The position numbers and the translations under genes were made by a program. 38,051 bases of DNA from Undibacterium sp. (GTDB taxonomy: Bacteria > Pseudomonadota > Gammaproteobacteria > Burkholderiales > Burkholderiaceae_D): assembly GCA_025352365.1 (NCBI GenBank), contig JANXTO010000116.1, forward strand, positions 1 to 38,051. Reading direction: 5' to 3'. Below, piece after piece: positions 5,683 through 18,969 of the stretch. Below the pieces are notes generated by a model. The model had not been told where the DNA came from, did no database searches, and saw only the letters and a program-made list of their open reading frames with translations. Position 1 is the first letter of the stretch; the number at the start of each line of letters is the position of its first letter.

Positions 5683-5765
5683 ATATACTCCCCATTATTT
5701 TTTACTAATCCGCCTTATAAGGCAGTAAATGATTGGACGATTAAATTATACTAATTGGGAGTATA
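5683..5765 (+). repeat. 83-bp MITE-like element, copy 1
   Basis: The left end is ATATACTCCCC (5683-5693) and the right end TTGGGAGTATA (5755-5765), so the outer 8-9 bases are inverted copies. Inside are a GCCTTATAAGGC palindrome and TGGACGATTAAA (5734-5745). The last 32 bases match copy 3 at about 27 positions. The element is 83 bp, like the other two copies, and shares their orientation. If TA is the duplicated target, the ends would fit a small Tc1/mariner-IS630-type non-autonomous element; that is inference. Confidence 0.75.
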
Positions 5766-6110
5766 AAAAATACTTGTATGAATTAAACTCCGTCGAAAGG
5801 GCGGAAATCATATGCAAACTAAAATACTTATACGAGTCGTCCGGCGTATTTCTAATGTTAGAGCAGACTGCATTTTTCTTCTTCATCCTCTTTAATAATT
5901 CGCTTAATACTTCGCTAAAAATAAAACTTGTAGATGTCATTTTCAGTTCGACGATGCGCAAGACACTCTGTTGGAATCCGGTCAAATTGAACTGAAATAA
6001 AAAGACGATACGTCTTCGTTTAACAATATAGTTGTGAAGTATATTTTTTATCTGCGACTTATCTTGCCTGATCTAAGTTAAGAAAATTTTTGATGGGTTC
6101 GTTCTATCTC
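5766..6110. other. AT-rich spacer between repeat copy 1 and the amidase gene
   Basis: No gene can be supported here. An 88-codon frame on the plus strand (5729-5995) starts inside the repeat and reads as low-complexity Phe/Leu/Asn-rich sequence. An opposing 79-codon frame begins with TTG. A 9-bp perfect inverted repeat pairs TTTCAGTTC (5941-5949) with GAACTGAAA (5989-5997). It is followed by a short hairpin AAGACG-ATA-CGTCTT (6002-6016) which, read leftwards, runs into T-rich sequence. The amidase promoter should lie in the right part. Confidence 0.5.
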
Positions 6111-6125
6111 TAGCTGGAGTAATCT

Positions 6126-7739
6126 ATGCATCGTCGGAATTTTATGAAGTTGAGTGTAATCGCTAGCGCCACTGGTGCCGCTAGTGTCGCTGATGTCGTT
6201 AGTGCTTCCGGCACACTTGCTGCGTCCTCAGCAGCGGCTGAAAAAGCTCATAACATCGTTGAAGCCAGCATCACTGATCTGCAAGCGGCAATGACGACGG
6301 GATCGCTGACATCAAAAAAACTAGTCACGGAATACTTAGCGCGGATCAAAGCTATCGATAAAGCGGGTCCGAATTTAAACGCAATTATTGAGCTCAATCC
6401 GGATGCACTAGCCATCGCCGATGCCCTGGATCGTGAGCGCAAAGCCAAAGGACCACGTGGCCCTTTGCATGGTATTCCTGTGCTGCTCAAAGATAATATT
6501 GCTACTGCCGATAAAATGCAGACCACTGCAGGATCGCTGGCGTTGGTCGGCGCCAAGGCGCCACGCGATGCTTTTTTAGTCGCTAGATTGCGTGAGGCTG
6601 GTGCAGTAATTTTAGGTAAAACTAATCTGAGTGAATGGGCCAATATGCGGTCTACCCGTTCTACTTCTGGCTGGAGCGCACGCGGTGGTTTGACCAAAAA
6701 CCCGTATGTATTAGACCGTAACACCAGTGGCTCCAGCTCCGGCTCCGGTGCGGCAATTGCGGCTAGCCTCGCTGCAATTGCGGTAGGTACTGAGACAGAT
6801 GGATCAATTACTTCACCCGCATCGATTTGTGGATTAGTTGGTCTCAAACCGACGCTAGGGCTGATCAGTCGTGACGGCATTGTTCCTATCGCCCACTCGC
6901 AAGATACCGCCGGACCAATGACACGTTCTGTCAGCGATGCCGCGGTAATGTTAACTGCCATGACCGGCGTCGATACGCATGATGCAGCGACGGCAGCTAG
7001 TGCCGGCAAGGCAGTTGACTACGCAAAATATCTGAATATAGATGGTTTAAAAGGTGCACGTATCGGCGTCGCGCGTAATGCGATGGGTAGCAATATGCGT
7101 CTACAGCCAATTGTTGATGCCGCCTTGGAGGTAATGAAAGCCAAAGGTGCCATTCTGATCGATGTTGAAGTACCTAATATGAGTAAATATGGTGATTCAG
7201 AATTAGAGGTTTTACTGTACGAACTGAAAACCGATCTGAATAAATATTTAGCGGAATTTGGTGTTGGTGCTCCGGTTAAAACCTTGAAAGATGTGATCGC
7301 ATTTAACGAGCGACATCGTGATAAGGAGATGCCTTATTTTGATCAGGAGCTATTGATCCGTGCAGAAGCCAAAGGCGGTTTGGACAGTAAAGAGTATCTC
7401 GATGCCTTAGAAAATAATCATCGATATTCACGCCAAGAAGGTATCGATAAAGTCATGAGCGAGAATAAACTAGACGCACTTTTTTCCCTGACAGGTGGCC
7501 CGGCATGGTTGACCGATTATATTAACGGTGATCATTCTGGCGACAGCTTCTCATCACCGGCAGCGGTTGCAGGGTATCCGCACATTACGGTGCCTGCTGG
7601 ATTTTTTAATGGTTTGCCGATTGGTGTGTCGTTTGTCGCGGGCGCCTATGCAGAACCAACTCTGATTAAACTAGCCTACGCGTTTGAGCAAGCGACCAAG
7701 CATCGCCGTGCCCCAGCATATTTAAAACATAGTACATAG
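6126..7739 (+). CDS. Tat-exported amidase (amidase signature family)
   Basis: A 537-residue amidase-signature hydrolase, acting on C-N bonds of an amide whose identity cannot be read from sequence. The catalytic triad is visible: Lys122 in PVLLKDN, cis-Ser203 in the GSSSGSGA run, and nucleophile Ser227 in TETDGSITSPA. The 24-residue spacing between the two serines is as in characterised members. The N-terminus carries a twin-arginine motif, RRNFMK, followed by an alanine-rich hydrophobic stretch, so the enzyme is probably exported folded to the periplasm, unlike GatA. GGAG at 6116-6119 supports the ATG at 6126. It stands alone after the repeat element, 72 bp before the ABC operon, and is not obviously part of either neighbouring operon. 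Confidence 0.9.
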   Translation: MHRRNFMKLSVIASATGAASVADVVSASGTLAASSAAAEKAHNIVEASITDLQAAMTTGSLTSKKLVTEYLARIKAIDKAGPNLNAIIELNPDALAIADALDRERKAKGPRGPLHGIPVLLKDNIATADKMQTTAGSLALVGAKAPRDAFLVARLREAGAVILGKTNLSEWANMRSTRSTSGWSARGGLTKNPYVLDRNTSGSSSGSGAAIAASLAAIAVGTETDGSITSPASICGLVGLKPTLGLISRDGIVPIAHSQDTAGPMTRSVSDAAVMLTAMTGVDTHDAATAASAGKAVDYAKYLNIDGLKGARIGVARNAMGSNMRLQPIVDAALEVMKAKGAILIDVEVPNMSKYGDSELEVLLYELKTDLNKYLAEFGVGAPVKTLKDVIAFNERHRDKEMPYFDQELLIRAEAKGGLDSKEYLDALENNHRYSRQEGIDKVMSENKLDALFSLTGGPAWLTDYINGDHSGDSFSSPAAVAGYPHITVPAGFFNGLPIGVSFVAGAYAEPTLIKLAYAFEQATKHRRAPAYLKHST

Positions 7740-7811
7740 AGTTATCGCAAATAGTGATTGGCAAGCTGGAGCTAATAATCAAATGAAATCACATGAAAGA
7801 ATGGTCGATAA

Positions 7812-8516
7812 ATGACTGAAGTCCCCGCACTAGAGTGCCGCGCCCTAAAGAAAAGTTATGCCGATGGACGCATTGTGTTATCCGGTTTGGATTTCACACT
7901 ACAGGCGGGTGAATACATTGCGATCATGGGCGAATCTGGTGTCGGTAAATCTACCTTGCTCAATATGATTGCCGGACTGGATACGCCAGATTCTGGAAGC
8001 GTTTTGATCGATGGTGCGATCATGTCGCAACTGACCGATGACCAAGCGACCCGCTTACGCCGTCAGAAGCTAGGATTTATTTTTCAGGCTTTTCATGTCT
8101 TACCCCACTTAACTTTGATGCAAAACATCAGCCTGCCACTCTTGCTCAATGGCGAGTCGCCTGTGCGTGCTGTACAGATGCTCAAAGCAGTTGGTCTGGA
8201 TGGACGAGGCAGTGATTTTCCTCGTCAATTGTCCGGAGGAGAGCTACAGCGTGTCGCCATTGCCCGCGCACTGGTGCATCGACCTACACTGGTCATGGCT
8301 GATGAACCGACCGGCAATCTGGACCCGGCCACGGCGCAGGGGATCTTAAAATTATTGCGTGATGAAATTAAAGCCAATGGTGCGTCCGCCATCATGGTGA
8401 CCCATTCCATGGCAGCGGCATCGACGGCAGACCGGATTTTGATATTGACCAGTGACGGGCTGCATCCGCTGGCTCCGAGAACAGAGCACATTGCTGCATC
8501 TCTCCATGCTGAGTAG
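7812..8516 (+). CDS. ABC transporter ATPase, LolD/MacB/YbbA type
   Basis: A 234-residue nucleotide-binding subunit with Walker A GESGVGKST (about residues 38-46), Q-loop in FIFQAFHVLP, signature LSGGE, Walker B LVMADEP and an H-loop MVTHS. The LPHLTLMQNI stretch and the downstream FtsX permease place it in the LolD/MacB/YbbA subgroup. These use ATP for mechanical work on envelope substrates rather than ordinary import. The gene overlaps the permease gene by 11 bases, which makes this pairing firm. It resembles AttE of AttEFGH-type systems because a lipocalin gene of the AttH/CrtC family follows the permease. Confidence 0.92.
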   Translation: MTEVPALECRALKKSYADGRIVLSGLDFTLQAGEYIAIMGESGVGKSTLLNMIAGLDTPDSGSVLIDGAIMSQLTDDQATRLRRQKLGFIFQAFHVLPHLTLMQNISLPLLLNGESPVRAVQMLKAVGLDGRGSDFPRQLSGGELQRVAIARALVHRPTLVMADEPTGNLDPATAQGILKLLRDEIKANGASAIMVTHSMAAASTADRILILTSDGLHPLAPRTEHIAASLHAE

Positions 8517-11097
8517 TTTACACACGCAACTAATGAAATGGCTAGTGTTTGGCGAATGGCGTGCGCATCCAGTACGCGCCATGGCTGCGATCGCCGCGAT
8601 TGCCTTGGGCGTTGCTTTGGGCTTCGCAATTGACCTGATCAATGGTACTGCATTAAATGAGTTTTCTGCCGCCGCCAAAAGCTTGACAGGGCAATCTGAT
8701 TTGCAAGTACGTGGTAGCCAAAGCCTGTTTGATGAGTCGGTTTATCCTTTGCTTGCCGAGCACCAAGGCGTAACTCTGGCGAATCCTGTTTTAGAAATTG
8801 ACGCAACAGTGCCAGGACAGCGCAGTGCCCTGAAGATACTTGGGATTGATGTTTTTCAGGCGATGGAATTGGCTCCGGATTTAATCGGAGTACCGCAGAT
8901 TGACCATCCGTTTGATACCTTGTCTGATGACGCCATCTTTTTATCGCCAGCCGCGCAAGAATGGCTTGCGGTCAAGCCTGGAGATCAGTTGCGCTTACAA
9001 AGTGGTACTGACGTCGTCTCACTACGGGTAGCTGGTGGCATTGTCAGGGCACGTCCCGGACAACGGATTGCTGTGATGGATATCGCTACTGCGCAGTGGC
9101 GCTTTGGGCGAATCGGTAAGTTGTCGCGGATTGATTTGAAACTGGACAGCGGCATCTCCCGTGATGCTTTTCGTCGCAGCTTATCTAAAGAATTTGCGAA
9201 TGAATCGACGAACGAATTTGCGAATAAACTTAATAAGCATTTATTGATCACAGAGAGTGCAGATCAGGAGACGCGCAGTGCCAACATGTCGCGTGCTTAT
9301 CGCGTTAATTTGAACGTGCTTGCTTTGGTCGCCTTATTCACCGGCGCATTTTTGATTTTTTCAACACAGGCTTTATCGGTGTTGCGTCGGCGTTCTCAGT
9401 TTGCATTGTTGCGTGTGATTGGAATGACACGGTCATTGTTGCTGCGTCAAATTTTGTTAGAAGGCGGAGTGCTTGGCGCACTCGGATCCCTGATTGGACT
9501 TGGCGCCGGATATGCTATGGCCGCACTGGCGTTACGTTTTTTTGGTGGCGATTTGGGTGGAGGTTATTTTCCCGGCGTCCAGCCTAGTGTGCAGTTTGAT
9601 CTACTGTCTGCTGTGATTTTCTTCGTGCTTGGAACAGGTATCGCATTGCTTGGGAGTTTGGTGCCGGCTTTAGAAGCGGCACGTGCGCAGCCTGGACCTG
9701 CATTAAAGTCCGGTAGTGAGGATGTTGCGATGACGCGCTTCGCATCGCCTTGGCCGGCGATGATATGTCTGGCTTTGGGTGGCGTGCTGACGCAATTGCC
9801 GCCCGTATCCGAATTGCCGGTATTTGGTTATCTGGCGGTCGCTTTATTGCTCATCGGCGGTATTGGATTAATGCCTCGCTGTTCCGCAGTGGTATTCACG
9901 TCTCTCCTGAATTTTCTACAAAGCCGCGCTGCTTTGCTCAGAAAAAATCAGGTCATGTTGCTGGTTCTTGCTCGCCTAGCTAACACGCCAAATCAAGCCT
10001 CAATTGCACTGGGAGGTGTGTTATCGAGTTTTAGTCTGATGGTGGCGATGGCGATTATGGTGTCGAGCTTTAGGGTGTCGGTAGATGATTGGCTGGCGCA
10101 AATATTGTCTGCCAATTTATATGTGCGCACAGCGTCCAACGGTGAGACTGCGGCGATTAGTCCTGCACAACAAAACATGATCAGCACATTGGCAGGTATA
10201 AAGCGCGCAGAGTTTTTGCGCACAAATCCCTTGACGCTAGATATAACACGGCCACCCGTCATCATGATCGCCCGCACGATTGATGCCGCAGATCCCGGGC
10301 GCACCTTGCCGTTGACTGAGGATGTGATAGATGCTACCAAGATCGCAGCAGAGACCATGCCGGTCTGGGTGTCTGAGGCGATGCTGGATTTGTACGGATA
10401 TCGTGTCGGGCAACGCGTGAATTTGCCTGTGGGTACAGGCGTGCATCCATTTACAGTAGCAGGCGTGTGGCGTGACTATGCGAGGCAATCTGGCTCGATA
10501 CAAATTCGCCTATCAGATTATCAGCGGTTGACGTCGGACCTTACTGTGACAGATGCCGCGCTATTTTTTAATCCTGATATAAGTACGGTGTCCGTTATTA
10601 AACAGGTGAGGACGCTACCATTTGGGAATACGGTTGAGTTCGCCGATCCTGGAGAAATACGCGCAATCAGTCTTAAAATTTTTGATCGTAGTTTCGCAGT
10701 CACTTATCTATTGGAAATCGTTGCGATGATGATCGGTCTGTTCGGTGTCGCGGCGACATTTTCAGCGCAAACACTGGCGCGTACCAAAGAGTTTGGGATG
10801 TTGCGCCATGTTGGGGTGACGCGTACACAGATATTACAAATACTGGGTGCAGAGGGAAGTTTGCTGACAGGATTGGGGATTATGGTCGGCTTCGTACTCG
10901 GTTGGATTATTAGTCTGGTGCTGATTTTTATTGTTAATCCTCAGTCATTTCATTGGAGTATGCAAATGCATATTCCGTGGTTGATGCTGGCATCGGTCGC
11001 CGTTTTATTATTGTTATCGTCTGCCGCGACGGCGATGTTGTCAGGTGCGCGCGCCGTAGCCGGTGATTCGGTGCGGGCGGTGAGGGAGGATTGGTAA
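8506..11097 (+). CDS. FtsX-family ABC permease, large fused form
   Basis: An 863-residue permease with an N-terminal membrane helix (about 25-45), a periplasmic domain, and FtsX/MacB-like helix groups near 280-400 and 740-860. Further hydrophobic segments near 430-540 separate two tandem halves, as in YbbP-type proteins. ALLRVIGMTRSLLLRQILLEG and the later GMLRHVGVTRTQILQILGAEG are the repeated FtsX signatures, showing the internal duplication. I chose the ATG at 8506, overlapping the ATPase stop; an in-frame start at 8452 would overlap by 65 bases. In AttEFGH-type operons the permease is two proteins; here it is one. Its TAA overlaps the next ATG (TAATG). Confidence 0.88.
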   Translation: MLSSLHTQLMKWLVFGEWRAHPVRAMAAIAAIALGVALGFAIDLINGTALNEFSAAAKSLTGQSDLQVRGSQSLFDESVYPLLAEHQGVTLANPVLEIDATVPGQRSALKILGIDVFQAMELAPDLIGVPQIDHPFDTLSDDAIFLSPAAQEWLAVKPGDQLRLQSGTDVVSLRVAGGIVRARPGQRIAVMDIATAQWRFGRIGKLSRIDLKLDSGISRDAFRRSLSKEFANESTNEFANKLNKHLLITESADQETRSANMSRAYRVNLNVLALVALFTGAFLIFSTQALSVLRRRSQFALLRVIGMTRSLLLRQILLEGGVLGALGSLIGLGAGYAMAALALRFFGGDLGGGYFPGVQPSVQFDLLSAVIFFVLGTGIALLGSLVPALEAARAQPGPALKSGSEDVAMTRFASPWPAMICLALGGVLTQLPPVSELPVFGYLAVALLLIGGIGLMPRCSAVVFTSLLNFLQSRAALLRKNQVMLLVLARLANTPNQASIALGGVLSSFSLMVAMAIMVSSFRVSVDDWLAQILSANLYVRTASNGETAAISPAQQNMISTLAGIKRAEFLRTNPLTLDITRPPVIMIARTIDAADPGRTLPLTEDVIDATKIAAETMPVWVSEAMLDLYGYRVGQRVNLPVGTGVHPFTVAGVWRDYARQSGSIQIRLSDYQRLTSDLTVTDAALFFNPDISTVSVIKQVRTLPFGNTVEFADPGEIRAISLKIFDRSFAVTYLLEIVAMMIGLFGVAATFSAQTLARTKEFGMLRHVGVTRTQILQILGAEGSLLTGLGIMVGFVLGWIISLVLIFIVNPQSFHWSMQMHIPWLMLASVAVLLLLSSAATAMLSGARAVAGDSVRAVREDW

Positions 11098-12251
11098 TGT
11101 GGAATCAAAAGAAAAGGAATCTTAGCGCTGCTTCGTATTTTTCCATTATTTTCGGCTTGTTATTAGCAGCGTTTGGTGGCGTCAGTCATGCTGCCCCGCC
11201 TGATTTTAGTGTAGTGCAACCGGGCACATCGCTACAATTTCCCACCGACTTTGGTGCCCATCCCACGTTTCGTACTGAATGGTGGTACGTCACTGGCTGG
11301 CTAGACACACCGGATCATCAAGCGCTCGGCTTTCAGATTACGTTCTTCCGTTCGGCAACCGATCACGACCGTAACAACCCCAGCGCGTTTGCACCATCGC
11401 AGCTAGTGATTGCGCATGCCGCTCTCTCTGATCCTAAGCTCGGGCATCTGTTACATGATCAAAAAAGCGCTCGCTCCGGTTTTGGTCTCGCGTATGCCAA
11501 AGTAGGGAATACGGATGTGAAATTGAGTGATTGGCATTTGCTGCGAAACACTGATGGTAGTTATCAGGCGCAAGTGCGTACGCGTGACTTCTCACTACAG
11601 TTACAGCTCACACCAACACAGCCACTCTTGCTGCAAGGCGAGGCCGGTTATTCCCGTAAAGGACCAAAACCAGAGCAAGCAAGCTATTACTATAGTGAAC
11701 CTCAACTGAAAGTGTCGGGTAAGCTGATGCGGTCAAATAGCTCTGCTGCTGTGTCTGAAAGTGCCGTCAAGTTGGGATCACCTAACATGGAGGTGCAGGG
11801 TAAAGCTTGGCTAGATCACGAATGGTCTACCAGCGTACTGGATGCGCAAGCCACAGGCTGGGATTGGCTCGGTGCCAATCTGGATAATGGTGACGTGCTG
11901 ATGGCGTTTCAAATCCGTAATCAACGCGGTGAGACTGTCTGGTCACATGCAACGTTGCGCGATAAATCTGGCCAAGCTACACAATTTTTGCCAGAGCAAA
12001 TTCGCTTCCAACCTGTGCGCACATGGCGCTCACCTCGCACTAATGCAACTTATCCGGTTGCCACCACGATCTCTACTGCAAATACACAGTGGCAAATCAC
12101 GCCTCTACAAGACGATCAGGAATTGGATTCGCGTCGCTCAACTGGGGCGGTATATTGGGAAGGAGCTGTCACGATCCAGAAAGATGGCAAGCGAGTCGGT
12201 CAAGGGTATTTGGAGATGACTGGCTATGTTAAACCGATGAAATTGCAATGA
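11097..12251 (+). CDS. Secreted CrtC/AttH-type lipocalin-like protein
   Basis: A 384-residue protein of the family often labelled carotenoid 1,2-hydratase or hydroxyneurosporene synthase. A signal peptide (about 1-34, ending SHAA) is followed by the family motifs FRTEWWYVTGWL, then DHEWS and GWDWLGANLDNGDVL; the two lipocalin-like halves cover the rest. The start ATG 11097 shares a base with the permease stop and has GAGGGAGGA six bases upstream. A TTG at 11091 is less likely. No carotenoid genes are nearby, so an enzyme role in carotenoid synthesis is doubtful. The context instead suggests a periplasmic partner of the ABC transporter, as proposed for AttH. Confidence 0.85.
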   Translation: MWNQKKRNLSAASYFSIIFGLLLAAFGGVSHAAPPDFSVVQPGTSLQFPTDFGAHPTFRTEWWYVTGWLDTPDHQALGFQITFFRSATDHDRNNPSAFAPSQLVIAHAALSDPKLGHLLHDQKSARSGFGLAYAKVGNTDVKLSDWHLLRNTDGSYQAQVRTRDFSLQLQLTPTQPLLLQGEAGYSRKGPKPEQASYYYSEPQLKVSGKLMRSNSSAAVSESAVKLGSPNMEVQGKAWLDHEWSTSVLDAQATGWDWLGANLDNGDVLMAFQIRNQRGETVWSHATLRDKSGQATQFLPEQIRFQPVRTWRSPRTNATYPVATTISTANTQWQITPLQDDQELDSRRSTGAVYWEGAVTIQKDGKRVGQGYLEMTGYVKPMKLQ

Positions 12252-12272
12252 GGAATAGCCAATGCGAATTAG

Positions 12273-12355
12273 ATATACTCCCAATCAGTATATTTAGTTG
12301 TCCATATAATGATTGGACGATAGGGTGTATTTATTAAAATTCATGGGGAGTATAT
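12273..12355 (+). repeat. 83-bp MITE-like element, copy 2
   Basis: Left end ATATACTCCC (12273-12282) and right end GGGGAGTATAT (12345-12355) are near-perfect inverted copies, the best pair of the three. The core holds a GTCCA/TGGAC stem and the shared GATTGGACGAT motif (12311-12321). This copy is also 83 bp, but its core motif lies ten bases further left than in copies 1 and 3. It sits 21 bases after the lipocalin stop, between convergent genes. Confidence 0.75.
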
Positions 12356-12455
12356 AGAAATTGATGTGCAAATTTAGTTTTTTACATTAAAAATCCCATC
12401 GCCTGCAAGTCGATTCAGACTGTCCCGTTTAAACTCAATTTTCGCTCTAAAAAAC

Positions 12456-13922
12456 TCAACGCCTGTTCGATTTACTATCTTCGCTACTATCCCATCCGCC
12501 ACCCATGGCCTTGATCAGATACACCGACGTCAGCATTTGCTGACCGTTGATTTGTACTGCCTGACGTTGATTATTTAACAGAGTTTGCTGCGCTGTGATG
12601 ACGTTTAAATAGGTGTCCAGGCCGCCTGTGTAGCGATCGTTAGCGAGATCTAGCACGCGTTGCGAGCTGCGTACACTGGCGTTTGCTTGTTTGCCGGCGT
12701 CGTTTAGGATGCTTAATCCGGTCATGCCATCTTCAACCTCTTGCATGGCAACCAGTACGCTTTGACGATAACTGGCGACGGATGCTTTGTAGGACGCCTC
12801 GCTGATTTTAACCGTCGCGTTAGTTTTACCTGCATCAAACAGGGTTTGTGTCAGTGCTGTGCCTAAAGACCATAATAAGCTGGGGGCGCTAAATAAATTG
12901 CTGATCTGATTGGCATCCCAGCCGCCGTTGGTTTGTAGCAGCAGGGTAGGAAAATAAGCAGATCGGGCGACACCGATATTGGCATTGGCTGCGGCAACGG
13001 CGCGTTCGTTTGCGGCGATGTCGGGACGTCGCTGCAACACATCAGAGGGCAAACCTACCGGCAATGTGGTTAGTAGCATTTTAGCCATCGACGGCGCTAG
13101 CTTAAAATTGGCTGCTGGCGTACCTGTCATGGTGGCTAAGGCATGTTCATATTGTGCGCGGCGGTTCTGCAATAAACTGAGTTGCGTTTTACTCGCGTCA
13201 AGCAAGGCCTGTTGTTGTGCCAGATCGAGGCCGGATGCAATGCCCAATTCGTGTCGGGCATCAATGAAGTTCAACGCTTTTTCCTGCAAAGTAACACCTT
13301 GATTCAACACATCGATTTCGTTATCAAGGGCACGCAGATTAAAGTAATCAGCAGCGAGTTCTGAAGTCAGTACTAAGCGTGTATTTTCAAAATCGGCAGC
13401 CGCTTGCTCTGAGCTTGCCCGTGCGCTGGCCACGGTGTTGCGGACACGACCAAATAAGTCGGCTTCATAATTCACCGCGAATCCAAGCTGAAAATTATTT
13501 TGTACTGTCGATTGGTTTGCCGTGTTGTAGGACGCGAGCGGGCGGTCAGCCGAGGTTTTTTGGCGCGCAGCACCAGCTTGTAATCCGACTTGCGGAAATA
13601 AGCCAGCCGCGCTAACACTCACCTGGGCACGTGCCTGTTCCAGATGCGCAACCGCTACTTGTAATGTTTGATTTTGGGTGATCGCTTGTTGTTCTAGCTG
13701 GTTTAGTTGCGGGTCCTGAAATATCAGCCACCACTGTCCTTTGGGGATGTGATCTGCTGGCACACCTTGCACAAAGGGTGCGGTGGATTGCCATGCAGCC
13801 GGCATCACGATTTCTGGCTTTTTGTAGTCTGGTGCACTGGAGCAACCAGCTAACAATGCTATCGGTACCAACAACGCTAGGATGGTTGGTGCTCCTGTGG
13901 AAGAAATGCGAGCTGCCTTCAT
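12456..13922 (-). CDS. NodT-family outer-membrane efflux lipoprotein
   Basis: A 488-residue TolC-like outer-membrane factor of the NodT/OprM family. The signal peptide ends in a lipobox, LLAGC, with cysteine at about residue 26, followed by SSAPDYKKPEI. The two OEP repeats are visible as long heptad-rich helices around 70-270 and 290-470, including GLPSDVLQRRPDIAANERAV, which is highly typical. It forms the trimeric exit duct for the adjacent RND pump. The start overlaps the membrane-fusion gene stop by 4 bases (ATGA on the minus strand), so all three subunits come from one message. No clear intrinsic terminator follows. Confidence 0.94.
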   Translation of the reverse strand: MKAARISSTGAPTILALLVPIALLAGCSSAPDYKKPEIVMPAAWQSTAPFVQGVPADHIPKGQWWLIFQDPQLNQLEQQAITQNQTLQVAVAHLEQARAQVSVSAAGLFPQVGLQAGAARQKTSADRPLASYNTANQSTVQNNFQLGFAVNYEADLFGRVRNTVASARASSEQAAADFENTRLVLTSELAADYFNLRALDNEIDVLNQGVTLQEKALNFIDARHELGIASGLDLAQQQALLDASKTQLSLLQNRRAQYEHALATMTGTPAANFKLAPSMAKMLLTTLPVGLPSDVLQRRPDIAANERAVAAANANIGVARSAYFPTLLLQTNGGWDANQISNLFSAPSLLWSLGTALTQTLFDAGKTNATVKISEASYKASVASYRQSVLVAMQEVEDGMTGLSILNDAGKQANASVRSSQRVLDLANDRYTGGLDTYLNVITAQQTLLNNQRQAVQINGQQMLTSVYLIKAMGGGWDSSEDSKSNRR

Positions 13923-15238
13923 GAGCCTGCCTTCTTTGGTGAGGCATCACTATTAGCTGACTTTTCGGACATTTTTTCTGCCGCTTTTTCCGCCACCTTT
14001 GTCGGTATCACGGTTACCGCGTCGTTATCCGCCAGCGAGTCTGCTGGATTGAGTATGAGTTTGTCAGATAAGCTGATGCCATCTAAAATTTCCAGAGCAT
14101 TACCCAGATCATGTCCGATGCTGACAGTCCGCAGCTTGACATGACTTTGCGCATCTACGACGGCAATTTGAGTACCTTCTGGACGGAACAAAATCACATT
14201 AGACGGAACAATCATGGCATTGGATGTGCCGCTCACAGGGAGCGCAACTTGCACGTAAGAGCCAGATAATAACTTGCCATCTTTATTGTTTAAATTGATT
14301 TCCATCTGCATGGTGCGGGTCGCCGCATCAATCGCACCGGCTGTGCGTGCGACCGTACCCTGGAAAGTCTGACCCGCCATTTCACTCTGAGTCACTTTGA
14401 CCGTGTCGCCAGCCTTGATGCGTTGCGCATAGGCTTGCGGCACATACACATACACTCGCAAAGTATCAACTTGTGCCAGCGTGAACAGCGCACGTCCTGC
14501 ACCGCCATTGCCTGCATCAATCAAGTCGCCGATTTCTACATTGCGCCGTGTTACCACTCCAGAAAACGGGGCGGTAATTTTTTTAAATTCTTCCAGTTTT
14601 TGCAGGCGACGTACGTTAGCTTCGGCGGAGGCAAAGTTTGCCTGAGCCTGCGTAAATGCGCTGGATCGTTCGTTCAATTCTTGCTGGGTTACGGCATCTT
14701 TTTTGCGTAAGGCTTCCCAACGTTCTGCGGACGATTTTGCCAGTTCTAAACTGGATGCAACTTGTTGGCGGGCGGCGATGGCTTGCGCTAATTGCTGGTC
14801 GATTTCTGGTGTGTCGATCTCTGCCAGTACGTCTCCTTTATTCACTTTACTGCCGATGTCTTTATTCCAGCGCAATACATAGCCGCTGCTACGCGCATAA
14901 ATAGGCGATTCGATCATGCCTTGTAGCGTGCCAGGCAAGATTAAGGCGTCGGTATTTCCAGACGCTTTGGCGTTCACCGTAGTGACATAGATTTTGGCGT
15001 GCTCTGCGGTTGATTCTGCTAGTGCGCTCGATTGAATAACGCGCAATCCCATAGTGATGATTGCACCCAGTACCAGCAGCGCTAGCGTTGAGGCACCGAT
15101 CAATTTAGCTCGCTTCAAGATAGGGCCCCGGAGGTGATGTGGATGCTCAGGTGCATGAGGATTGGAATGTTGCTCAGCATTTGCCTCATGGCTTTGCGCG
15201 CTATGTATGCCAAGGACGGCGTGGCGTTGATCAGACAT
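13919..15238 (-). CDS. RND efflux membrane-fusion (periplasmic adaptor) protein
   Basis: A 439-residue HlyD/AcrA-type adaptor. A histidine-rich cytoplasmic segment (about 10-35) precedes one membrane helix (about 45-68). The barrel-sandwich/lipoyl halves (GYVLRWNKDIGSKVNKGDVL and ITAPFSGVVTRRNVEIGDLI) flank an alpha-hairpin at about 145-210. A beta-barrel follows. The C-terminus is a Lys/Ser/Ala-rich tail without domain features. It links the RND pump in the inner membrane to the NodT duct. The gene follows the pump gene with a single-base gap and overlaps the outer-membrane gene by 4 bases. Confidence 0.93.
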   Translation of the reverse strand: MSDQRHAVLGIHSAQSHEANAEQHSNPHAPEHPHHLRGPILKRAKLIGASTLALLVLGAIITMGLRVIQSSALAESTAEHAKIYVTTVNAKASGNTDALILPGTLQGMIESPIYARSSGYVLRWNKDIGSKVNKGDVLAEIDTPEIDQQLAQAIAARQQVASSLELAKSSAERWEALRKKDAVTQQELNERSSAFTQAQANFASAEANVRRLQKLEEFKKITAPFSGVVTRRNVEIGDLIDAGNGGAGRALFTLAQVDTLRVYVYVPQAYAQRIKAGDTVKVTQSEMAGQTFQGTVARTAGAIDAATRTMQMEINLNNKDGKLLSGSYVQVALPVSGTSNAMIVPSNVILFRPEGTQIAVVDAQSHVKLRTVSIGHDLGNALEILDGISLSDKLILNPADSLADNDAVTVIPTKVAEKAAEKMSEKSANSDASPKKAGS

Positions 15239-15239
15239 A

Positions 15240-18200
15240 TCAGGACTTTCCTTCTTCTACAACAGGCGATGATGGAGATGCGGGTGGAGTGTTATTTGTG
15301 ACAGCGCTAGTTTGCTTACGATGTTCCAGATAGCGATGGATGCTGGCAAAGACGATCGGTACAAAAAATAAAGTAGATACCGTCGCAAACAGTAAGCCGC
15401 CGATCACTGCGCGACCGAGCGGGGCATTTTGTTCTGCTCCTTCACCAAGGCCGATTGCCATCGGGATCATACCGATGATCATTGCCAGCGCAGTCATTAA
15501 TACAGGTCTGATGCGGGTAGCACCTGCTTCCAGTGCCGCCGACAGCGGTGGTAATCCATCGTTAAGGCGCTGCCTAGCAAACGAGACCATCAAAATACTA
15601 TTGGCGGTGGCGACCCCCATGGTCATAATCGCACCAGTCAGGGCGGGAACGTTCAGTGTAGTTCCCGTTAAAAATAACATCCAGACGATACCAGCCAAGG
15701 CAGCAGGCAATGCCGTAATGATGATAAAGGCATCTACCCACGATTGGAAATTGACCACGATGAGTAAATACACCAAAACGATCGCCATCAGCAAACCAAT
15801 TCCCAAACCGATGAAAGACGACTTCATCGTTTGTACCTGACCACGGATATCAATCCGCGTGCCGCGTGGCAATGTTGGTCGTAAGTCGTTCACCAGTTTT
15901 TCTACTTGATTGGATACACCGCCCAGATCACGGCCTTCTACGCTGACATACAAATCAATCACAGGTGTGATGTTGTAATGCGAGACCACCGCCATTTGTT
16001 GCGCTGGTTTTACGCTGACCAGATTGCTCAGAATTTGCGAGGGGACGATACCATCGCCCGCTGTATTTGCGACCGCACTGGAGCGTACAGGTATGCGCAG
16101 TAGGGAATTTAAATCACTGATCTGATGTTGTGGCGTTTGCACGGCGATGCTATACACAATGCCATTTACCGGATTGAGCCAGAAAGCAGGTGCAGTCTGG
16201 AAGCTGCCTGACAAAGACACTAGCAGATTCTGTGCGACATCAACCGGATTTAAACCTAGCTGTTTGATCTGGCTACGATCTACGTTTAAGGCTAAGGTAG
16301 GCTGATCCATCCTTTGCTGGATATGTACATCCACTGCACCAGGTATCTGTTTAATCTGCTTCATCAGATCACTGGCGTAGCGGTAATTGGACGGAAGATT
16401 ATTGCCAGCGATCTGGATATCCATTGCTGCCGGTAAGCCGAAGTTCAGAATCTGCGTCACGATATCGGCGGGTTGGAAAAAAAATTCCACACCGGGAAAA
16501 CGCTTTGGCAGTTCACGACGCAGACGCTCGATATACGTCGCGGTCGGACGATGATCTTCGTTCAGTGAGATCAGAATTTCGCCATCCAGTGTGCCTATCG
16601 TGCCTGCATTGCTATAGGACAGATTAATACCGCTATACGGTAAGCCAAGGTTATCGAGTACGGTACCGATTTCTTCTTTTGGGGTCATCTCGCGGATGAC
16701 TTTTTCCACCTCATCGGCGATACGGGCAGTCTCCTCAATCCGAGTACCTGTCGGCGCACGCATATGCAGACGGATCTGACCAGAATCGACGCTAGGGAAG
16801 AAATCTCTTCCTAAGCCAAATACCAAGCCTAAAGACAAGATACAAAATCCGAGGAACATGCCGCCAAACATTTTTCTATGCGTGAGCAGCGTGGATAAGA
16901 TGATGATGTAGCCACCACGAAATTGTTCAAATGCAGCATCAAATTTGCGATATACCCGTTGCAGCAAACTCGGCTTGGCCGCCGGATCAATATGCGAATG
17001 ATCCATCATCAGCATGACCATGGTCGGTACCAGAGTACGTGATAACACATACGATGCCAGCATCGCAAAGACCACGGCTTCTGCCAACGGCACAAACAAA
17101 TAACGTGCAACGCCTGTTAGGAAGAACATTGGCAAAAACACGATACAAATACACAGCGTAGAGACCAGCGCGGGGATGGCGATTTCACCAGCGCCATCCA
17201 GAATAGCTTTATGCAAATCAGAGCCTTGGTGTAAGTGCCGCTCGATATTTTCTATCGTGACGGTCGCATCGTCTACCAGGATGCCGACCGCTAGCGCCAA
17301 TCCGCCCAGAGTCATAATATTGATGGTTTCTCCCATCGCATACAAGGCCAGTATCGATGCCAGAATAGACAAGGGAATCGAGACGGCAATGATGCAGGTG
17401 CTGCGCCAGTTTCCCAAAAATAGCAAAATCATGGCAGCGGTCAATACCGCAGCGATCAGCGCCTCGTGGATAACGCCTGTGATGGCCGCTTTGACAAACA
17501 CAGATTGGTCAAACAGCTGAGTGATCTTTAATTCTTTAGGTAGGGTTTGTAAGGCGGTCGGCAAGATGTTGCGCAGATTATTCACGATGTCCAGCGTTGA
17601 TGAGCCACCGTTCTTGAGTACTGATAACAGTACGCCGCGCTCGCCATTCTGCCGGACAATATTGGTTTGGGGCGAGAAGCCATCGCGTACGCGTGCGACT
17701 TCTGACAGATAAGTCATGGTGCCATTTTTATTCAATACCGGAATGTTGTTCAGCCCGGCAATCGTATCGGGTGAGCCATTCATATTGACGTTGAATTCGG
17801 TCGCACCGATTTTGGCGGTACCGGAGGGCAGTGCTAGATTTTGCGCATTGACAGCGTTGACCACATCGGTTGGCGTCAGCCCTTTTGCCAGTAGCGTTTG
17901 CGTATCCAAATCTACGGACACCAGCCGCGATTTGCCACCAAAAGGGAAGGGCACCGCAGCGCCTGGAATGGTGATTAATTGAGGACGTAAAAAATTGACC
18001 GCGGTATCAAACAGTGATTGCTCATTCATCGTCGCACTCGACAAACCAAGCTGAATGACAGGGATGCTGGATGCCGAATATTTAATCACTAGCGGCGGTG
18101 TAATACCTGCAGGTAGCTGGCGTAATTGCGCTTGTTCGATAGAGACTACTTGTGCAATCGCCGTCTGGATATTGGCATTGGGCTGGAAAAAAATCTTGAT

Positions 18201-18473
18201 GATGGAAATGCCAGCCAGCGATTGGGACTCGATATGTTCAATATCGTTGACCGTGGTGGTCAAACTGCGCTCATTGACAGCGGCAATCCGTTGTCCCATT
18301 TCTTGTGCAGACAGGCCGTTGTAGTTCCAGATAATACTGACAACGGGGATATTAATTTCTGGAAAAATATCGGTCGCCATTTTGGTCAGCACCAGTGGCG
18401 TTGATAACAAAATCAATAACGCCATCACGATAAACGTATAGGGCCTTCGCAATGCAATTTGAACGATCCACAT
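15240..18473 (-). CDS. RND efflux pump, inner-membrane subunit
   Basis: A 1077-residue RND transporter, normal length for the family. Twelve membrane helices are expected; the first is at about 12-32, with large periplasmic loops after helices 1 and 7. The helix-4 proton relay is present as ILVDDATVTIEN with adjacent aspartates. In helix 10 the AcrB lysine position in the (A)KNAI motif appears as TANSI, so that lysine is absent. This is probably subfamily-specific and means the substrate class (drug or metal) cannot be assigned from motifs. It is the first gene of a pump-adaptor-duct operon. AGGGA lies about 13 bases before the ATG. No linked regulator gene is present. Confidence 0.93.
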   Translation of the reverse strand: MWIVQIALRRPYTFIVMALLILLSTPLVLTKMATDIFPEINIPVVSIIWNYNGLSAQEMGQRIAAVNERSLTTTVNDIEHIESQSLAGISIIKIFFQPNANIQTAIAQVVSIEQAQLRQLPAGITPPLVIKYSASSIPVIQLGLSSATMNEQSLFDTAVNFLRPQLITIPGAAVPFPFGGKSRLVSVDLDTQTLLAKGLTPTDVVNAVNAQNLALPSGTAKIGATEFNVNMNGSPDTIAGLNNIPVLNKNGTMTYLSEVARVRDGFSPQTNIVRQNGERGVLLSVLKNGGSSTLDIVNNLRNILPTALQTLPKELKITQLFDQSVFVKAAITGVIHEALIAAVLTAAMILLFLGNWRSTCIIAVSIPLSILASILALYAMGETINIMTLGGLALAVGILVDDATVTIENIERHLHQGSDLHKAILDGAGEIAIPALVSTLCICIVFLPMFFLTGVARYLFVPLAEAVVFAMLASYVLSRTLVPTMVMLMMDHSHIDPAAKPSLLQRVYRKFDAAFEQFRGGYIIILSTLLTHRKMFGGMFLGFCILSLGLVFGLGRDFFPSVDSGQIRLHMRAPTGTRIEETARIADEVEKVIREMTPKEEIGTVLDNLGLPYSGINLSYSNAGTIGTLDGEILISLNEDHRPTATYIERLRRELPKRFPGVEFFFQPADIVTQILNFGLPAAMDIQIAGNNLPSNYRYASDLMKQIKQIPGAVDVHIQQRMDQPTLALNVDRSQIKQLGLNPVDVAQNLLVSLSGSFQTAPAFWLNPVNGIVYSIAVQTPQHQISDLNSLLRIPVRSSAVANTAGDGIVPSQILSNLVSVKPAQQMAVVSHYNITPVIDLYVSVEGRDLGGVSNQVEKLVNDLRPTLPRGTRIDIRGQVQTMKSSFIGLGIGLLMAIVLVYLLIVVNFQSWVDAFIIITALPAALAGIVWMLFLTGTTLNVPALTGAIMTMGVATANSILMVSFARQRLNDGLPPLSAALEAGATRIRPVLMTALAMIIGMIPMAIGLGEGAEQNAPLGRAVIGGLLFATVSTLFFVPIVFASIHRYLEHRKQTSAVTNNTPPASPSSPVVEEGKS

Positions 18474-18474
18474 C

Positions 18475-18886
18475 TTAAATCGACTTCCCTAGGAAATATT
18501 CGGTTTGATTAGGCTTAACGGTAATAGCTAGATAAGTGACTGCGGTAATGGCTAGCTTAGTTATAAGCTTGGTGACTGTCATCATCAATGAGATCATTGC
18601 CATAGAAATGGCAGCGGAGTTTGCGGTGATGGTGGTGCAAAAAAACAGTACAAAAAACAATAAAAAAACAGCACAAAACAGCGTTTAAATTACTAGAAAA
18701 TTGCTACAGTATCAGCCGATGAAAAGTGTAAATGAATTTGGCGACCAACGTCTAAATATGAACCGGGAAGTTATGACCTGACATGCGCAATTTTTGCGGC
18801 AAAGGTACTCCATTACCGATAAAGACAATTCGCTTGATGGAGTAGGATTTTTGTAAATTGGTTAAGACTCAAGTTGTTCGATATGA
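18475..18886. other. Upstream region of the RND operon
   Basis: The RND promoter should lie here on the minus strand. A 61-codon frame (18475-18660, minus) ends one base before the pump's ATG and would encode a hydrophobic Ile/Thr/Ala/Met-rich peptide with about two membrane-like stretches. I cannot distinguish a leader peptide from chance. A 20-codon frame at 18719-18781 (plus) lacks a ribosome-binding site. Nothing else is recognisable. Confidence 0.4.
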
Positions 18887-18969
18887 ATATACTCCCCGTA
18901 AATTTAGTAAAAATATCCTTATAGTCCAAAGAATATATGGACGATTAAAATATACATGGTGGGAGTATA
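18887..18969 (+). repeat. 83-bp MITE-like element, copy 3
   Basis: Left end ATATACTCCCC (18887-18897) and right end GGGAGTATA (18961-18969). The core has AGTCCA (18923-18928) opposite TGGACGATTAAA (18938-18949), as in copies 1 and 2. The 83-bp length and the position of TGGACGA (offset 51) agree exactly with copy 1. It lies 235 bp beyond the regA stop and about 410 bp upstream of the RND operon. Confidence 0.75.

Follow-up and report, generated by a model that had tools for sequence, protein, structure and literature searches.

Bacterial intergenic repeats are often taken for transposon debris. The enterobacterial repetitive intergenic consensus (ERIC) element is 127 bp in length. ERIC elements, or intergenic repeat units (IRU), are given in PMC10969869 as present in 30 to 711 copies per enterobacterial genome, some of them at gene 3′ ends in Yersinia, and a 127-bp repeat is named RU-1 in PMC2759123. 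The Correia elements of Neisseria appear in PMC10969869 as resembling miniature inverted-repeat transposable elements (MITEs), with inverted ends, a length of 204 bp, over 120 copies in N. gonorrhoeae and a position predominantly immediately upstream of genes. REPINs, a further non-autonomous repeat population, are associated with RAYT transposases, which PMC8049555 describes as present in single copy and passed on vertically. The present analysis concerns a repeat with three copies in a 38,051-nt stretch of DNA from the water bacterium Undibacterium sp. (contig JANXTO010000116.1, forward strand; hereafter the window), the host genome of which (G000) comprises 4.02 Mb in 362 contigs. As with ERIC/IRU, this is a short intergenic inverted-repeat element, present in many copies of conserved unit length that sister species share at orthologous positions; the likeness is one of kind, the Undibacterium repeat belonging to another genus, having another sequence and measuring about 80 rather than 127 bp. 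It also differs in possessing two fixed layouts, one of which has a flipped end box, and in a measured depletion of insertions and deletions (indels). Unlike the Correia elements, it is about 80 bp long and keeps away from the divergent, promoter-bearing regions of both the host and the sister genome G015. The family is real, large and constrained, with length and end boxes conserved in the individual copies, and the two layouts at fixed spacing, together with the measured rigidity, are new features. No description of the repeat was found in the open literature searched, subscription papers being outside its scope, and as far as these searches reach the family is undescribed.

The exact pattern TACTCCC-N50-75-GGGAGTA occurs at 83 sites in the host genome, against none for the reversed-pattern control. 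A looser pattern, in which the terminal G run is not required, gives 313 matches to the commoner arrangement (type I) and 47 to the flipped-box arrangement (type II) in the host, 332 and 48 in G015, and 66 and 83 in U. aquatile (G034); these whole-genome figures are matches and not copies, as a symmetric copy may match on both strands. Reversed-pattern controls gave zero for both layouts in all 43 Undibacterium genomes. Fifteen of these are carriers, with 18-332 type I and 5-83 type II matches each, and the other 28 are non-carriers with 0-2 matches per pattern. The strict pattern was found in 17 of 60 genomes (host included), with only one single match outside the genus. Among the matches listed in a scan of open genomes, most belong to Undibacterium (aquatile, rivi, griseum, oligocarboniphilum, jejuense, strain Jales W-56 and metagenome-assembled genomes (MAGs)); two Burkholderiales MAGs are also present, and scattered other taxa among the matches listed were taken as chance, as were four matches of 74-89 bp in viral contigs. 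A search of plasmids and phages with window copy 3 gave no match. A profile search found 53 copies in 400 kb of host contigs; these contigs, and several of the G015 regions, were picked for carrying copies and their density is thus biased, a bias from which the whole-genome pattern counts are free.

Read from the left, the element consists of ATACTCCC(C), an AT-rich arm (about TTTTTATnAAAA), a clade-specific core and a right dyad, TATAC-N8/9-GTATA. The core is GTCCA...TGGAC in the host and G015, and TNTC...GG with GGGC in U. aquatile. The window holds the following features, the boxes and dyads being assigned from the sequence:

5683..5765, plus strand: copy 1, type I element, TACTCCC...GGGAGTA of 78 bp at 5686-5763, with an orthologous copy in G015
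5685..5692, plus strand: left box of copy 1, ATACTCCC
5747..5765, plus strand: right-end dyad of copy 1, TATAC-N9-GTATA
12273..12355, minus strand: copy 2, type I element in reverse orientation, 77 bp at 12276-12352, with an orthologue in G015
12274..12292, minus strand: right-end dyad of copy 2, at the left side on the plus strand
12346..12353, minus strand: left box of copy 2, GGGAGTAT on the plus strand
18887..18969, plus strand: copy 3, type I element, 78 bp at 18890-18967
18889..18896, plus strand: left box of copy 3, ATACTCCC
18951..18969, plus strand: right-end dyad of copy 3, TATAC-N9-GTATA

An earlier note on this DNA, made from its letters, had reported three elements of 83 bp at these places, outside genes and all pointing the same way. 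Inspection of the sequence and its open reading frames (ORFs) confirms the positions and their location outside genes, and alignments of paralogues end near the reported 83 bp. The common direction was an error: copy 2 runs the opposite way from the other two, as its AT-rich left arm and the TATAC-N9-GTATA dyad at its right end show. That TGGACGAT lies on the plus strand in all three copies nevertheless holds, because the GTCCA...TGGAC core of copy 2 is nearly symmetric; copy 1 lacks a GTCCA partner, consistent with the description of a facing GTCCA in copies 2 and 3 only. Copy 3 has a counterpart at the corresponding coordinate of the sister genome (G015:C1:758230) and lies outside the flank-mapped set described below.

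In the type I layout the left box ATACTCCC points inward and usually lies 78-80 bp from the right end, whereas in type II the left box is flipped, its inner edge usually 61-64 bp from that end. Both layouts occur in the same 15 genomes. The left boxes of the host sample, 43 in all, show just two distances to the right end within the scanned range, 79 bp (13) and 80 bp (30), and in G015 the distance was 78-80 bp for 30 of 32 (one 81, one 95). Flipped boxes in the host stand at 63 (one) or 64 bp (three); U. aquatile and U. rivi (G028) each show one extra match with the flipped box at 74 bp. A shuffled-sequence control gave 0-1 matches per genome. Type II matches are at least as numerous as type I in U. 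aquatile (83 vs 66) and rarer in the host (47 vs 313). The G/C polarity of the right dyad in U. aquatile follows the orientation of the left box (Fisher p 1e-4, copies treated as independent): type I dyads (n=64) comprise 30 G-only, 24 both and 10 C-only, and type II dyads (n=81) 42 C-only, 22 G-only, 16 both and one other. The exceptions indicate that pairing is favoured and not required. Sampled type II copies in the host, G015 and griseum (G030), numbering 5, 5 and 3, followed no clear polarity rule. One type II unit (G034:C1:856848-856917) and its U. rivi orthologue have right-end hairpin arms with paired changes, CGGTCTGAATATAC/GTATATTCAGACCG vs AGGTCAGAATATAC/GTATATTCTGACCT.

Conservation was measured on 38 orthologous pairs, 31 of type I and seven of type II. 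Gap events number 6 in 2964 columns inside copies vs 43 in 3888 in noncoding flanks, that is, they are about five-fold rarer inside (Fisher p 3.7e-6). Substitutions inside copies amount to 9.7% (type I) and 3.9% (type II), compared with 15.3% and 13.1% in the respective flanks. The ends hardly change, with substitutions in 4/217 comparisons for the first seven bases and 1/124 for the last four, against 467/3238 in near flanks, although the motif was required in the first genome's copy of each pair and this biases end conservation upward; the requirement should have little effect on the indel result. In the 23 host/G015 pairs the middle of the element changes at 10-17% per site, almost as fast as flanking noncoding DNA, and the right dyad's TATAC at 5/138. 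The eight U. aquatile/rivi pairs show slower change over the entire element (41/612 vs 120/793 in near flanks).

Copies are inherited in place between sister species. G015 is 92% identical to the host over a tested 4.1 kb. By their flanks, 24 of 53 host copies could be mapped onto G015 and all 24 are present there in the same orientation; the remaining 29 unmapped copies are put down to the comparison having covered parts of the G015 genome, and six of the 24 had served to pick G015 regions. In the reverse direction 24 of 43 G015 copies were mappable, all of them present in the host. Comparison by eye of U. aquatile with U. rivi reveals that 15/15 U. rivi and 16/16 mappable U. aquatile sites are shared, two sites being without flank. 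Every mappable griseum site (5/5, one unmappable) carries a copy in U. aquatile. One aquatile-clade site, read by eye, holds a copy in aquatile and rivi and none in the carriers G021 and G023 or in eight non-carriers; by coordinates, griseum and oligocarboniphilum (G013) also have it. Such clade-restricted occupancy, together with clade-specific copy numbers, suggests that the element first spread inside clades and later came to be inherited vertically, as it is now.

Placement was examined in four sampled genomes, using genes from a home-made gene finder (about 75-84% called coding). No called gene contains any of the 111 units. In divergent regions the host (5 vs 13.1 expected, p 0.003) and G015 (6 vs 11.7, p 0.03) have fewer units than expected, an avoidance that is not clear in U. 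aquatile (p 0.09) or griseum (p 0.43). Convergent regions are enriched in G015 (p 0.0045) and U. aquatile (p 0.002), and not in the host (p 0.33) or griseum (p 0.27). Relative to tandem genes, orientation in the host is even (same/opposite 17/17 or 18/17).

A U. aquatile subfamily with longer shared flanks is represented by six same-orientation copies over an 11-kb block of small genes, among them a small multidrug resistance transporter, a fatty-acid hydroxylase, a GDSL lipase, a polyketide-cyclase-like protein and others without assignment; U. rivi has four copies there and partly different genes. This block (G034:C1:64362-75681; G028:C5:64404-72626), in which small, mostly minus-strand genes alternate with the copies, looks like a cassette array, and in U. 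aquatile a second shared motif stands just upstream of several gene starts. Like integron attC sites, which have RYYYAAC/GTTRRRY core sites, copies of the subfamily stand between variable gene blocks and share one orientation. Unlike attC sites, the Undibacterium copies are predominantly dispersed and single, and integron integrase (TIGR02249) exceeds the cut-off in just 3 of the 15 carriers (one broken), compared with 9 of 28 non-carriers (12 of 43 genomes together); neither U. aquatile nor U. rivi is among them. At a second place the cargo between two copies differs between the species: in U. aquatile (G034:C12:193596-196676) it comprises a 170-aa gene and a NACHT protein, and in U. rivi (G028:C10:193217-197026) an Abi_alpha protein and three ORFs, two of which were scanned without a Pfam match. 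The slot adjoins a response regulator on one side and, on the other, what we take to be a kup-like gene. Sequence shared by both species extends 45 and about 135 bp beyond the copies into this block, so ordinary homologous recombination between repeats explains the swap of cargo as well as a site-specific event does. No such exchange was noticed at the 16 sites mapped between the two species, where no test for exchange was made.

The explanation that we favour, with a confidence slightly above even, is a genus-limited miniature intergenic repeat family of the ERIC/IRU or Correia kind, spread in trans, now inherited in place, and built as a rigid two-end DNA platform. In each carrier clade a putative enzyme acting in trans would once have copied the element to many AT-rich intergenic sites; the copies are now passed on in place, as the sister species show. 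Each copy would constitute a rigid platform of end box L (ATACTCCC), core and right-end dyad R; we read the almost fixed spacing as a sign that a DNA-binding protein recognises the two ends at the same time, and this might be a host protein that took the sites over or else the enzyme responsible for mobilisation. The element would now be maintained, perhaps as a two-box protein-binding site. Several points weigh against this explanation. The transposase was not found, the IS630 DDE_3 domain being absent from all 15 carriers and the RAYT-like gene failing to track the element, and neither an empty site nor a target duplication was seen among the 24 and 16 mappable copies of the two sister comparisons. 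Between U. aquatile and griseum orthology is partial, with a griseum copy at 5/9 mappable U. aquatile sites and none at 4/9 (nine unmappable); the four sites without a copy offer no readable empty site. The right-end G run is absent from 11/44 host and 10/33 G015 type I copies, so the full inverted repeat is not retained by every copy. Outside the host, copies are unevenly oriented to tandem genes (same/opposite 5/15 in G015, 3/7 in U. aquatile, 0/3 in griseum), end conservation carries the upward bias given above, and binding of a protein to both ends is deduced from sequence. Much of the same evidence, namely the strongly constrained length and ends of single copies, the vertical inheritance, the even orientation to genes in the host and the two layouts with fixed spacing, would also suit a family of chromosomal protein-binding sites of non-transposon origin, serving nucleoid organisation or as recombination boundaries and kept because each copy is useful. 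We regard this as possible and rather doubtful: 18-332 type I matches, 28 of 43 congeners without the element and a clade-specific site have the look of amplification, and no binding protein is known. More tentative again is the proposal of a new class of bacterial repeat, a rigid two-box platform whose two layouts (the end box either facing inward or flipped and displaced by about 16 bp) would be kept under selection by a genus-specific protein complex at fixed sites, dozens to hundreds of them in each genome; in U. aquatile and U. rivi it would also bound exchangeable accessory and phage-defence-like blocks and would there represent a new kind of recombination site. With the family present in 15 and nearly absent from 28 congeners, the acting protein can be sought by directly comparing gene content.

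Structured RNA, or an intrinsic terminator working at gene 3′ ends, is highly unlikely. Copies between tandem genes do lie nearer the stop in 27/35 (host), 14/20 (G015) and 6/10 (U. aquatile) cases, the host's divergent regions are depleted, and boxes L and R are able to pair, R polarity tracking L orientation in U. aquatile; however, the proportion is 0/3 in griseum, the host shows no orientation preference, and in the window Rfam at gathering score gave no match and none of 22 terminator-like sites coincides with a copy. Single folds vary between copies, and covariation of the inner hairpin is weak (n=183) or nearly absent (n=56). Nor does any promoter-like site fall within a window copy. 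The earlier note had proposed a non-autonomous element of Tc1/mariner-IS630 type (a MITE), to be judged by further copies with conserved boundaries, by empty sites with TA duplications and by a matching transposase. Many further copies exist in the host and its relatives, intergenic, dispersed, in high number and with conserved boundaries and inverted ends adjoining TA (some without the right-end G run), and to that extent the proposal stands; its attribution to IS630 is not supported, as DDE_3 (PF13358) has no match in any of the 15 carriers and none of the 24/24 (host-G015) and 16/16 (U. aquatile-U. rivi) mappable shared copies revealed an empty site or a TA duplication. That these are decaying copies of such a MITE is quite improbable, since neutral decay would not deplete indels about five-fold inside copies. 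Orphan ends 100-4000 bp apart, as an autonomous parent might have, looked among the matches listed for samples of five genomes like type II units, nested copies or weak matches; the intervals were not searched for transposase genes. Scarcely better placed is a REPIN-like element copied by a single RAYT-like Y1 transposase seemingly present in nearly all Undibacterium, which we consider improbable. Y1_Tnp matches occur in 42/43 genomes (41 over cut-off, other IS200-type genes counted in), and in the host, G015 and G021 the RAYT-like gene is followed by an element no more than about 140 bp downstream. Unlike in REPIN-RAYT systems, however, the element, restricted to 15 genomes, does not track the gene: all six non-carriers looked at possess it, no element profile match surrounds it in 11 of 14 carriers examined, and two of the three carriers in which it is flanked are sisters. 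The gene has its own CTGACCCTA-like downstream repeat, of which five samples of 359-400 kb contain 0-1 each.

The RAYT-like gene was located at G000:C224:7157-7441, G015:C1:4129355-4129639 and 18 other loci, most with a downstream repeat of the CTGACCCTA type. By eye, 14 of the 20 loci place it just upstream of a conserved gene, presumably gltB. The host and G015 proteins are identical from MAR onward. Examples of integron integrase genes are found at G015:C1:1821734-1822684 and G021:C93:17483-18427. Elsewhere in the window, between two genes at 1642-1689, a decaying, AGTCCTACTGTA-like 12-bp unit is present in four tandem copies.

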